From an uncultured Eubacteriales bacterium (GTDB taxonomy: Bacteria > Bacillota > Clostridia > Lachnospirales > Bianqueaceae), in the NCBI GenBank assembly GCA_902796435.1, contig CADBPG010000086.1, forward strand, positions 1 through 54,942: DNA of 54,942 nucleotides. Reading direction: 5' to 3'. The notes under the pieces are model-generated. The model was not told the DNA's origin, ran no database searches, and saw only the letters and a program-made list of their open reading frames with translations. Below, piece after piece: positions 41,581 through 54,942 of this stretch (position 1 is its first letter; every line of letters starts with the position of its first letter). A program made the position numbers and the translations under genes.

Positions 41581-41581
41581 T

Positions 41582-41664
41582 GCGGATGAAGGGACTCGAA
41601 CCCCCACGACCTTGCGATCACTAGAACCTGAATCTAGCGCGTCTGCCAATTCCGCCACATCCGC
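41582..41664 (-). tRNA. tRNA-Leu (anticodon CAG)
   Basis: 83 nt, class II tRNA. Acceptor GCGGATG/CATCCGC, anticodon stem CTAGA/TCTAG with loop TTCAGGT (anticodon CAG), long variable arm, T-loop GTTCGAGTC. CCA is not encoded. Promoter at 41716-41688, terminator at 41580. Confidence 0.95.
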
Positions 41665-48613: not shown

Positions 48614-48685
48614 AGCGCGAAACGAGATTCGAACTCGCGACCCTCGCCTTGGCAAGGCGATGCTCTACCACTGAGCCATTCGCGC
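48614..48685 (-). tRNA. tRNA-Gly (anticodon GCC)
   Basis: 72 nt. Acceptor GCGCGAA/TTCGCGC with discriminator U, D arm GGCTCAGTGGTAGAGC, anticodon stem TCGCC/GGCGA with loop TTGCCAA (GCC), T arm GCGAG/CTCGT with TTCGAAT. CCA not encoded. Confidence 0.95.
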
Positions 48686-49771: not shown

Positions 49772-49785
49772 GGATCAGGGATGAA

Positions 49786-50141
49786 TGGAGATGATGGGAA
49801 TTGAACCCATGTCCGAAAGCCCCTCCATCTTGGGCTCTACTATCATAGCCGATGTTTAAGATCTCCCGGATTCCAGCCCCGTCGGCAGGGCAGTGGGCAC
49901 CGGCAGCCCGGTAAAGATCTTTACGAACGCCCGGGCGACGTACGTAAGTGGCCCGCTATGGATGGGCCCCGGCACAGACCGCGGGTCGTCTATGCAAGAG
50001 CGGCTGCGATCAAATGATCAAGCAGCAAAAGCGAAATTAGATTCGTCGTTAGCGTTTATATTTAGGTCCGGTTGTTGCGTGGCCCGGCCCACGGATAGCT
50101 CCCAGGATCTCGTCGACCCCCGTCGAAACCTTGACATCCCC
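49786..50141 (-). ncRNA. ssrA: Transfer-messenger RNA (tmRNA)
   Basis: 356 nt. The 5' end GGGGATGTCAAGG and 3' end CATCTCCA form the tRNA-like acceptor, with T arm GGACATGGGTTCAATTCCCA. The tag frame reads Ala-Asn-Asp-Glu-Ser-Asn-Phe-Ala-Phe-Ala-Ala and stops at TGA (about 50046-50012), following AAATATAAAC. Pseudoknot stems are GC-rich. CCA is not encoded. Rescues stalled ribosomes with SmpB (not in the window) and marks products for proteolysis. Promoter at 50198-50170, terminator at 49771-49735. Confidence 0.96.
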
Positions 50142-52271: not shown

Positions 52272-53159
52272 ATGAATAAACTGTTGCGCAGGATCATACG
52301 ATTGCCGTGGATCTTAGGCACGGAGGTCGTCCTGCTGTGGAACCGGACCCGGGCCGGCCGGACATTGATCACCACCACATATGATCTGTATCCGCCGGGC
52401 CTGCCGGCTGCCTTCGATGGCTGTACGATCGTGCACCTGACAGATCTCCATGGACGTGTCTTCGGACCGGAACAGGCAGATCTTCTGCACCATGTCCGGG
52501 CGCTTGCGCCGGATCTGATCCTGCTCACCGGCGATATGTACGATGAAGAACAGGACCCGAAACGGCGTGCTGAGATCAATGGATTGATGGAAGAACTGGC
52601 CAAGGATGTACCGGTCTATGCTTCCATGGGCAACCATGAGATCCGCAGTGATGCACTGCTGGAGCTTGAAACGGAGATGCGCCGCACGGGCGTGCGCCTG
52701 CTGCGTGACCGGTCCGCCATCGTGACCCGCGGTACAGACAGGATCGGGATCACAGGCCTGGACCCCAATCCACAGGAGGGCATGTTGGAGGAAGAAGCGC
52801 CGGAAGTCCGTTGGGACCGCCTGCAGAAGGCGATGGCCCGCTACGGGGAGGAACCGGTGGGCTTCAAGATCCTGTTGGCGCATAAACCGGAGCTTCTGGA
52901 AGACTATGCCATGTTCGGTGCGGATCTGGTCTTCAGTGGACATGCCCACGGCGGCCTGCTGGAACTGCCTTTGCTGCATAAGCGCCTGCTGGCGCCGGGG
53001 CAGGGTCTGTTTCCCAGGTACAGCCAGGGGTTGTATCTGCAGGATCACACACTGCTGGTCTTGTCTTCCGGCCTGGGTGGCCCTAGACTGGGTCTGAAGC
53101 CTGAGATCGTACAGGTGCGGCTGCATGTCAGAAAGCAACCGTCAACCAAAAACAAGTAA
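52272..53159 (+). CDS. Metallophosphoesterase (YkuE/YaeI-like)
   Basis: 295 residues. Calcineurin-like motifs in order: VHLTDLHGRVFG, LILLTGDMYDEE, ASMGNHEIRSD, ILLAHKPELLED and FSGHAHGGLLELP. The N-terminus (about 10-30) has a weak hydrophobic patch but no clear signal peptide. Members of this group remove head groups from UDP-diacylglucosamine-like or other lipids; substrate unknown here. GAGAGGTGC precedes the ATG, 35 bp after the CobW gene, so the two are likely cotranscribed. Transcription beyond it is stopped by the hairpin at 53191-53225. Confidence 0.9.
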   Translation: MNKLLRRIIRLPWILGTEVVLLWNRTRAGRTLITTTYDLYPPGLPAAFDGCTIVHLTDLHGRVFGPEQADLLHHVRALAPDLILLTGDMYDEEQDPKRRAEINGLMEELAKDVPVYASMGNHEIRSDALLELETEMRRTGVRLLRDRSAIVTRGTDRIGITGLDPNPQEGMLEEEAPEVRWDRLQKAMARYGEEPVGFKILLAHKPELLEDYAMFGADLVFSGHAHGGLLELPLLHKRLLAPGQGLFPRYSQGLYLQDHTLLVLSSGLGGPRLGLKPEIVQVRLHVRKQPSTKNK

Positions 53160-53164
53160 TAAGG

Positions 53165-53193
53165 TTGACAATTAAAACGAAATATGATAAGAT
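53165..53193 (+). promoter_or_regulatory. Promoter of bioY
   Basis: TTGACA (53165-53170), 17 bp, TAAGAT (53188-53193), extended -10 TG at 53185-53186. The -10 overlaps the 5' arm of the terminator at 53191. No BirA palindrome recognised. Confidence 0.82.
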
Positions 53194-53225
53194 CCCCTGG
53201 TATGAATCCAAAGGGGGTCTTTTTT
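53191..53225 (+). terminator. Terminator whose 3' arm is the bioY ribosome site
   Basis: GATCCCC (53191-53197) pairs with GGGGGTC (53213-53219), followed by six T directly before the bioY ATG. It ends transcripts from the metallophosphoesterase operon. RNAs begun at the bioY promoter start near 53200 and lack the 5' arm. Confidence 0.8.
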
Positions 53226-53768
53226 ATGAAGAAAAACCATGTGTATATCCTGGTGCTGACGGCGCTGATGACGGCTGTCATCTGCGTGCTGGCACCGATT
53301 TCTGTGCCTGTTGGCCCGGTGCCCATCTCGCTTGCCACCTTTGCGGTGCTGCTTGCCGCATATCTGCTGGGGTGGAAGATGGGCCTGTGCAGTGTGGCGC
53401 TGTACCTGCTTCTGGGCCTGATCGGCGTGCCGGTCTTCGCCGGCTACAGCGCAGGGCTTGCGAATCTGGTCGGTCCCACCGGTGGGTATCTCATCGGCTA
53501 TCTGCCACTGGCATTTGCCACTGGCTGGGCCGTGGAACGGTATCAGGATGCTGTCCGTCCGGTCCTGGGTATGATCGTTGGAACCCTTGTGTTGTACGTG
53601 CTGGGCACTGCCTGGCTGGCACTGCAGATGCATATGAGCTTTTCCCAAGCATTAGGCGCGGGTGTCATCCCCTTCCTGCCCGGAGACGCGGCGAAGATCG
53701 TGGTCACCGCGGTTTTGGGGCCGATCCTTAAAACCGCTTTAAAAAAAGCAGGCGTACTGGAGAAATGA
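53226..53768 (+). CDS. bioY: Biotin transporter substrate-binding subunit BioY
   Basis: 180 residues, six membrane segments. S component of an ECF transporter. Family marks: ALMTAVICVLAPISVPVGPV, PISLATFAVLLAAYLLGWKM, LYLLLGLIGVPVFAGYSAGL, LVGPTGGYLIGYL and the C-terminal PFLPGDAAKIVVTAVLG. AAGGGGG at 53211-53217 fits ATG 53226; the reading from 53184 begins within the promoter. No ECF ATPases or T component nearby, so it either shares a group II energy module or works alone. Indicates biotin uptake. Confidence 0.94.
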   Translation: MKKNHVYILVLTALMTAVICVLAPISVPVGPVPISLATFAVLLAAYLLGWKMGLCSVALYLLLGLIGVPVFAGYSAGLANLVGPTGGYLIGYLPLAFATGWAVERYQDAVRPVLGMIVGTLVLYVLGTAWLALQMHMSFSQALGAGVIPFLPGDAAKIVVTAVLGPILKTALKKAGVLEK

Positions 53769-53770
53769 TA

Positions 53771-53836
53771 GAAACTCCTTGACGTATTCAGGAAAAACCA
53801 GTAAAATATGGGTATCCTATGTGTCAAGGAGTTTTT
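53771..53836 (+). terminator. Terminator enclosing the next promoter
   Basis: AAACTCCTTGAC (53771-53782) pairs perfectly with GTCAAGGAGTTT (53822-53833), followed by T to 53836. It terminates bioY transcripts. The 39-nt loop holds a complete promoter spacer and -10. Confidence 0.83.
53778..53806 (+). promoter_or_regulatory. Promoter of the surface-protein gene
   Basis: TTGACG (53778-53783, inside the terminator's 5' arm), 17 bp, TAAAAT (53801-53806). Predicted start near 53813, downstream of the 5' arm. Confidence 0.8.
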
Positions 53837-53839
53837 TAT

Positions 53840-54942
53840 TATGTCACGAAAGAGCTTATGGTCTATTATTTCCTGGCTTTTGATCGGTATATTTGCATTC
53901 TCATCTCTGCAGCCGGCGGTACTTGCGGCGGAGGATGAAGTTGTTACGGAGGAAATCACGCCTACAGAGGAGCCAGCAGAAACAACGGACGAGGAAACGC
54001 CCGCGGAACCGGAGACTCCGGCAGAAGGAGAGCAGCCTTCCGAAACAACGGAGCCGGAAGAACCGACAGAGCCAACGGAGCCGCAGCAGCCGGAAGAACC
54101 TTCTGAACCGGAGCAACCGGAAGAGCCTGAGGAACCCTATACCGGCTGGAAAGAGACGGAAGGGGGAACCCAGTACTGGGACAACGGTACGCCTGTAACG
54201 GGCCTTAAGGAGATCGAATACCACCTGTATTATTTCAATGCGGATGGGTTCCAGCAGACCGGCTGGCAGACGATCGATGGGAACCGCTATTATTTCGATG
54301 AGGGCACGGCAGTAGCGGCTTTCGGTATCGTGCTGATCAATGGGAAGAAATATGCTTTCGATGAAGCAACAGCCATTCAGAAGACAGGCTGGCAGACCAT
54401 CGAAGGCAATGTCTATTATTTCGATCCGTCCACCGGCGCTATGGCGACCGGCATCACCACCATCTCCGGCAAGAAATACTTGCTGAGTGATGAGGGCGTC
54501 CGCCTGACAGGATGGCACACCATCAGCGGCAAGAAGTACTATGCTTCTGCCAAGGGTGTTCTGTACAGCGGCCAGCACAAGATCGGTAAATACTACTATT
54601 ACTTCGATAAAAAGACCAATGTCATGGTCAAGAGCAAGTTCATCGAACTGACGAACTCCAAGGGCAAGAAGTACACGGTCTATTACAACAAATATGGCCG
54701 CAAGGTCTTCGGCGATCAGACCATCGGCAAGTATAAGTATCACTTTACCAGCAAGGCCGGTGCCATGTATAAATCCAAGTTCGTCAAGAAGACGGATAAG
54801 AAGGGCAAGACCTACAAGATCTACTACGACAGCAAGGGACGCCAGGCCTTCGGCAAGAAGACGATCAAGGGCCACGTCTATTACTTCAACAAGAAGACCG
54901 GCAAGCTGGAATGGAAGGATCGTAAGTACCAGAACCCGAAGG
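53840..54942 (+). CDS. Secreted cell-wall-binding repeat protein, C-terminus beyond the window
   Basis: At least 367 residues, open at the right edge. Signal peptide about 1-31 (basic start, LWSIISWLLIGIFAFSSL, cleavage near VLAA). Residues 32-97 are a Pro/Glu/Thr-rich acidic linker. From about 98 come cell-wall/choline-binding-type repeats of about 20 residues: TGWQTIDGNRYYFDEG, TGWQTIEGNVYYFDPSTG, TGWHTISGKKYYASAKG and others with the GW-x-I-x-G-x-x-YYF pattern. Later repeats become Lys/Tyr-rich and lose the GW (IGKYYYYFDKKT, IGKYKYHFTSKAG, KKGKTYKIYYDSKGR). AAGGAG at 53825-53830 is the ribosome site and is part of the terminator arm. A catalytic domain, if any, must lie outside the window. 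Confidence 0.88.

Follow-up and report, generated by a model that had tools for sequence, protein, structure and literature searches.

The gap between the biotin transporter gene bioY and a surface-protein gene of an uncultured Eubacteriales bacterium is probably a fold-back insulator with the promoter of the downstream gene nested inside it (positions 53765-53840). RNA polymerase arriving from bioY would copy both arms of an inverted repeat, and a hairpin would form behind the polymerase. The U tract that follows would bring about intrinsic termination of part of the bioY read-through transcripts. In the remaining read-through RNAs the Shine-Dalgarno (SD) sequence would be locked in the stem, so that no surface protein would be made from them. 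The nested sigma-A-type promoter would give rise to a native RNA that starts at about 53814, past the 5' arm; the hairpin would be impossible in this RNA, which would be elongated and translated.

The features of this element, and of a second instance ahead of bioY itself, are collected in Table 1. All positions refer to the window, that is, the whole stretch of DNA that was analyzed (54,942 nucleotides, contig CADBPG010000086.1). The window also carries a tmRNA gene (49783-50141, minus strand; Rfam RF00023, 164.5 bits) and two tRNA genes (48614-48685 and 41581-41664, both on the minus strand).

Table 1. Coordinates of the bioY and surface-gene elements in the window
Feature	Position	Strand	Basis
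Presumed BirA-type operator GTCAACC-N15-GGTTGACA, over bioY -35	53141..53170	+	Sequence; similar in G001 and G003
bioY promoter TTGACA-N17-TAAGAT	53165..53193	+	Consensus scan
bioY element, 5' arm AAGATCCCCT; overlaps -10, ends just before presumed start (~53200)	53189..53198	+	Stem survey, opening cost
bioY element, 3' arm AGGGGGTCTT; holds bioY SD; T6 (53220-53225) and ATG (53226) follow	53212..53221	+	Stem survey, opening cost
bioY, biotin ECF transporter S component; source of read-through	53226..53768	+	Pfam PF02632, E 1.5e-43
Whole fold-back element, bioY stop codon to base before ATG	53765..53840	+	RNA fold, kept in G001 and G002
5' (anti-SD) arm AAACTCCTTGAC, carried solely by RNA from upstream	53772..53783	+	Complement of 53823-53834
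-35 box TTGACG, overlaps 5' arm	53779..53784	+	Consensus scan; TTGAC kept in G001 and G002
-10 box TAAAAT (TACAAT in G001 and G002); N17 in all three	53802..53807	+	Consensus scan, alignment
Presumed native start, A in conserved TATCCTA, 7 nt past -10	53814	+	Inferred from promoter spacing
3' arm GTCAAGGAGTTT	53823..53834	+	Inverted-repeat search
SD AAGGAG inside 3' arm, 9 nt before ATG	53826..53831	+	Sequence, SD opening cost
U tract T6 of presumed intrinsic terminator	53832..53837	+	Sequence; identical in G001 and G002
Surface-protein gene, choline-binding repeats; ATG at 53841, cut by contig end	53841..54942	+	Pfam PF19127/PF01473

A preliminary description of this DNA had reported a perfect 12-bp inverted repeat, a promoter TTGACG-N17-TAAAAT with its -35 box in the left arm, and an AAGGAG in the right arm together with T6, all of which we confirmed. 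The core arms are 100% complementary, contain G-C in 5 of their 12 pairs and enclose 39 nt. They form the sole inverted repeat of at least 9 nt between 53600 and 54000, and the arm pair occurs once in the 2.67-Mb assembly, with no paralogous copy of the element. The intergenic gap is 72 bp, and the TGA of bioY (53766-53768) lies 3 nt ahead of the core 5' arm. The U tract directly follows the stable core stem. The primary loop, 39 nt with weaker inner pairs, was not listed by a scan for simple terminators with loops of 3-8 nt, and neither that scan nor the sequence gave a second terminator between the two genes. A search of Rfam found no leader RNA family matching at the element. The surface protein matches PF19127 with an E value of 2.8e-32. 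Each of three species has one clear choline-binding gene; this genome (G000) and G002 each have, in addition, one weak match that falls short of the cut-off. The acidic, repetitive N-terminus of the protein gave two weak matches only in a scan of named genomes.

The read-through RNA is predicted to form about 23 outer pairs from 53765, the helix being extended by pairing of an upstream AUGAUAG with the U-rich stretch ahead of the ATG, plus an AGG/CCU pairing further in. Its minimum free energy is -30.5 kcal/mol versus -12.3 (S.D. 2.9) for shuffled sequences (z = -6.4; 0 of 200 shuffles as good). The RNA starting at 53813 is structured like its shuffles (z = 0.1). As judged by the fold and by the cost of opening, the SD sits inside a stable helix of the long RNA: opening it would cost 14.9 kcal/mol in the read-through RNA versus 2.8 kcal/mol in the native RNA, and the corresponding long/native values across three species are 14.9/2.8, 12.6/5.9, and 15.8/3.8 kcal/mol. 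Shuffled long RNAs require 3.1-3.7 kcal/mol, and 0 of 200 reached the observed cost. When the SD arm was held fixed and the DNA ahead of it was dinucleotide-shuffled, a stacking energy of -18 kcal/mol or better was reached in 35 of 10,000 trials; the best trial gave -22.9 kcal/mol versus the observed -25.5 kcal/mol. These predictions support the preliminary claims that RNA from upstream carries both arms and hides the SD, and that native RNA begins past the 5' arm with its SD free.

SD hiding in the read-through RNA would follow from ordinary thermodynamics. Termination is the less certain of the two halves of the mechanism, given a primary loop of 39 nt and only moderate G+C content in the core stem. 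Termination at the U tract is likely but may be inefficient, the loop being long for an intrinsic terminator. Folding may also be impeded by a ribosome halted on the bioY TGA, 3 nt short of the arm, unless transcription outpaces translation. A terminator so near the bioY stop would be effective only if ribosomes trail far behind the polymerase. Short distances from stop codon to stem serve as a proxy for transcription outrunning ribosomes (Johnson et al. 2020, as relayed in PMC7858274). Among 147 terminators in the genus sample with a stem at most 80 nt from the stop, the median distance was 18 nt and 37% lay within 12 nt.

For comparison we used three other species of the genus, G001, G002, and G003. 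The bioY-surface gene pair and the fold-back element are both present in G001 and G002. These two relatives retain TTGAC, the -10 box (as TACAAT), the 17-nt spacing, both arms, T6, and the TATCCTA at the presumed start, whereas most positions of the promoter spacer differ. Each of the two relatives has one substitution in the core arms, and each substitution still allows a G-U pair in the sense RNA. The inner pairs differ between species, yet each surface-gene RNA has an inner helix of its own. In this species, G001, and G002 the promoter boxes and their spacing place the predicted native RNA clear of the 5' arm. The covariation term of RNAalifold is about zero for these three surface-gene orthologues, and conservation across three sequences is modest evidence for the predicted fold. 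G003 lacks the surface gene and has a plain short-loop hairpin terminator after bioY; the next gene there is, on our reading of the protein, argininosuccinate lyase-like.

Comparable inverted repeats, which the preliminary description expected elsewhere in the genome, came to light in a survey of about 1.1 Mb from the genus. It took in 677 kb of this draft assembly, a quarter of the whole, together with parts of two relatives, 195 kb from G001 and 218 kb from G003. Gene starts came from a simple caller, promoters were found by consensus, transcription starts were inferred, and 807 SD-bearing starts were ranked by the best stem over the SD. Across all 807, stems outnumbered expectation solely at the far end of the energy range (E <= -20; 9 observed versus 1.8). 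Among the 33 starts with at least four T between SD and start codon, stems of <= -18 occurred in 7, versus 0.23 expected from dinucleotide shuffles and 0.14 expected (maximum 2 in 100 trials) when promoters were swapped. This T-run class was set after the surface-gene and bioY cases had been seen, and the independent finds, nrdD and a DUF308 gene, number 2 against about 0.2 expected. Shuffling promoter pieces with the hexamers fixed was dropped as a control, since pieces of 6-17 nt barely change, and swapped promoters were used. Of the seven cases, three are bioY genes from as many species and two are surface genes, also from different species; the others are nrdD (PF13597) of G000 and the DUF308 gene of G003. 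All seven have a promoter with its start between the arms, and in none of them does the 5' arm extend past the predicted start.

The 774 starts without a T-run showed no clear excess (6 versus 4.7 with shuffles), and the swapped-promoter control gave 4 versus 1.9, which is not significant. Hiding of the SD by promoter sequence as a general habit of the genus was rejected, there being no excess at moderate stem energies and no significant one outside the T-run class. In two other genera of the family, no stem reached -18 among 154 promoter-bearing starts (400 kb). An aldose epimerase gene (L087 (+) 1603), a zinc-ribbon gene (L083 (-) 1641), and a GH42 beta-galactosidase gene (L081 (+) 5639) have a long stem that hides the SD and takes its 5' arm from the promoter, but no strong U tract; as a class, such stems were not above chance (4 versus 1.9).

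The idea in the preliminary description that such elements could evolve repeatedly holds to the extent that the layout recurs, at the unrelated genes bioY, nrdD, and DUF308. It is rare, with 7 starts from 4 gene families in about 1.1 Mb, and the proposed basis, complementarity between a -35 box and an SD, proved too narrow. The -35 region supplies the left arm at the surface gene and at DUF308; for nrdD and bioY this arm is drawn from the spacer or from the -10/start region. What the predicted elements share is a 5' arm that precedes the native start. The DUF308 fold-back is a species-specific case: orthologues in G001 and G002 keep TTGCAT-N17-TACGAT, and the fold-back is absent from them. An element can therefore arise or vanish at an existing promoter. 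The predicted DUF308 start coincides with the SD itself, and the boxes may be slightly misplaced.

The best independent support for the predicted mechanism comes from nrdD. The arms are ATCCTTCTTGGG/TCCAGGGAGGAT in G000 and ACCCCTTTTAT/ATAGAAGGGGT in G009, which belongs to another genus; G001 has AGGGGG as its SD, with a matching change in the arm inside the spacer. In all three genomes the 5' arm lies within the 17-nt promoter spacer. Between species the promoter boxes are constant and the arms turn over with the SD, the pairing being kept. Opening the SD would cost 14.5, 13.0, and 14.4 kcal/mol in the long RNAs of G000, G001, and G009, respectively, and 2.4, 4.7, and 0.4 kcal/mol in the native RNAs; shuffled long RNAs averaged 3.6-4.9 kcal/mol, with 0 of 200 as high as observed. 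A different hairpin, GCACAAGAT...ATCTTGTGC, lies across the -35 region of nrdD in G006 and G010 (L157, L158) and probably represents paired NrdR boxes.

The fold-back layout ahead of bioY is the same in G001, and in G003 the 5' arm has moved to the promoter spacer. The operator over the -35 box is presumed to be of BirA type from its resemblance to BirA sites. In G010 (L019), G046 (L016), and G029 (L024), bioY likewise has an SD-complementary arm that reaches no further than the predicted start. The arm in G010 is strong, 14 bp without a U tract, and 0 of 300 shuffles were as good. Those of G029 (12 of 300 shuffles as good, but 34 of 200 by opening cost) and G046 (1 of 200 shuffles by opening cost) are weaker, of moderate strength. 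Most other bioY genes of the order lack such an arm. The arms in G010, G046, and G029, which lie in other genera or families, hint that BirA-controlled bioY genes may have SD-hiding folds more widely.

Terminator positions were examined in 229 codirectional gaps, in which there were 80 terminators. The first U lay 0-9 nt from the next start codon in nine cases, 10-19 nt from it in none, and 20-29 nt from it in 16. In the nearest class the 3' arm includes the SD, and a promoter scoring at least 9 with its start between the arms is present in 6 of the 9. In the 20-29-nt class the stem precedes the SD, and none of the 16 has a nested promoter (Fisher p of about 0.0005 for the near versus the 20-29-nt class, computed by hand with orthologues counted separately). 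Promoters in the near class are what the mechanism predicts, because an untranslatable read-through RNA requires a bypassing promoter of the gene's own. Terminators with a U tract 20-29 nt before a start and no promoter of their own after them make up 16 of the 80 in the samples of G000, G001, and G003 (e.g. L060 (-) 13899, L071 (-) 411, L130 (+) 380, and L053:8383) and look like operon-internal partial terminators just ahead of the SD.

It is conceivable, but unlikely, that compaction explains the surface-gene element, the bioY terminator having been squeezed into the 72-bp gap with SD hiding and the escape of native RNA as unselected by-products. The lack of a further terminator in the gap would fit this view, as would the limitation of the stem excess to T-run starts and the overlap of terminators with promoters elsewhere in the genus, e.g. 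at L061 (-) 18506. Compaction does not account for the avoidance of 10-19 nt by terminators and the separate 0-9-nt class with its nested promoters in 6 of 9, nor for 5' arms that end at or before the predicted start in 7 of 7 cases. A 39-nt loop suits an SD lock and is poor for a terminator, and the 14-bp lock at bioY of G010 has no U tract. We infer selection for insulation of the downstream gene beyond a compact bioY terminator.

The repeat might instead act as DNA, binding a repressor or looping protein across the promoter, with the RNA pairing incidental; the left arm overlaps the -35 box, and the arm centers are 51 bp, about five helical turns, apart. We regard this as highly improbable given that the pair CTCCTTGAC/GTCAAGGAG is found once in the genome, that changes in the arms still allow G-U pairing in the sense RNA, and that unrelated arms at other genes always have the SD in the right arm, which an operator does not need. 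A hairpin with a U tract and a hidden SD is also the off-state of leader attenuators and riboswitches, which would call for a longer native RNA from an upstream promoter that holds both arms and is switched by a signal. The conserved promoter is predicted to initiate past the 5' arm, however, the site has no Rfam match, and the 3 nt between the bioY stop and the core arm leave no sensing leader unless it lies within bioY, so that such a switch is scarcely to be expected. Least credible of all is an invertible promoter, in which recombination between the 12-bp repeats would flip the segment and turn the surface gene on or off. Surface genes are often phase-variable, and the promoter does lie between and within inverted repeats, but one orientation is seen across three species, both relatives have imperfect repeats, and the layout is shared by bioY and nrdD, which are housekeeping genes. 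At 63 bp the segment is very short compared with known invertible switches.

A self-bypassing insulator would have relatives among known systems. In phage T4, long early transcripts of gene e hide the SD and lysozyme synthesis is reduced 100-fold, late promoters situated in the DNA that encodes the 5' strand give transcripts without that strand, and soc, 49, and I-TevI have inhibitory translation-initiation hairpins as well (PMC3014915). The likeness is that a long RNA hides the SD and that RNA from a promoter just upstream lacks the 5' strand and is translated. Gene e, however, belongs to a phage, where it concerns lysis timing and late sigma-factor promoters, whereas the elements described here have sigma-A-type promoters, chromosomal genes, and a presumed-terminating U tract. 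In IS10/IS50 and in the tnpA leader of IS200, RNA entering from promoters outside the element includes an arm that masks the ribosome site of the transposase gene, and RNA from the internal promoter does not; the IS200 leader is a terminator too. These systems guard mobile elements from flanking promoters. Here the genes are single-copy host genes, the 5' arm is inside the promoter, and the arms are unrelated to transposon ends. Ordinary near-stop terminators of uncoupled species (PMC7858274) likewise have a stem a few nt past the stop and then a U tract, but they lack a long loop that holds the next promoter and a 3' arm that is the SD of the next gene. SD-hiding riboswitches and attenuators also have a leader hairpin with the SD in its 3' arm; here the native RNA is without the 5' arm, and the origin of the transcript rather than a ligand would decide. 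Our literature search, which misses most subscription papers, found no terminator overlapping both a promoter and an SD. The logic is known from phages and transposons; what is new is that it is combined with a presumed terminator, and this repeatedly, at ordinary chromosomal genes of one bacterial group.

At bioY and nrdD a plausible purpose is to stop read-through that bypasses the repressor; the surface gene has no known operator. We tentatively propose, as a possibility that we place somewhat below an even chance, a recurrent chromosomal class of self-bypassing insulators in this bacterial group. Its members would combine a terminator with an SD-hiding fold whose 5' arm lies in the downstream promoter, would guard bioY (with its BirA-type operator) and nrdD (under presumed NrdR control) against repressor-bypassing read-through, and would have evolved several times from different promoter parts.

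Where genes lie tens of bases apart, the independence of a gene from transcription of its neighbor is usually credited to an intervening terminator. Here one short stretch would serve three purposes, terminating one gene and supplying the following gene with both its promoter and its ribosome site. Where a transcript starts would decide whether it is translated. Inverted repeats ahead of genes need not be operators or riboswitches. If this logic operates at repressor-controlled chromosomal genes, it would make insulation in compact genomes testable and would offer a design for compact insulated promoters.
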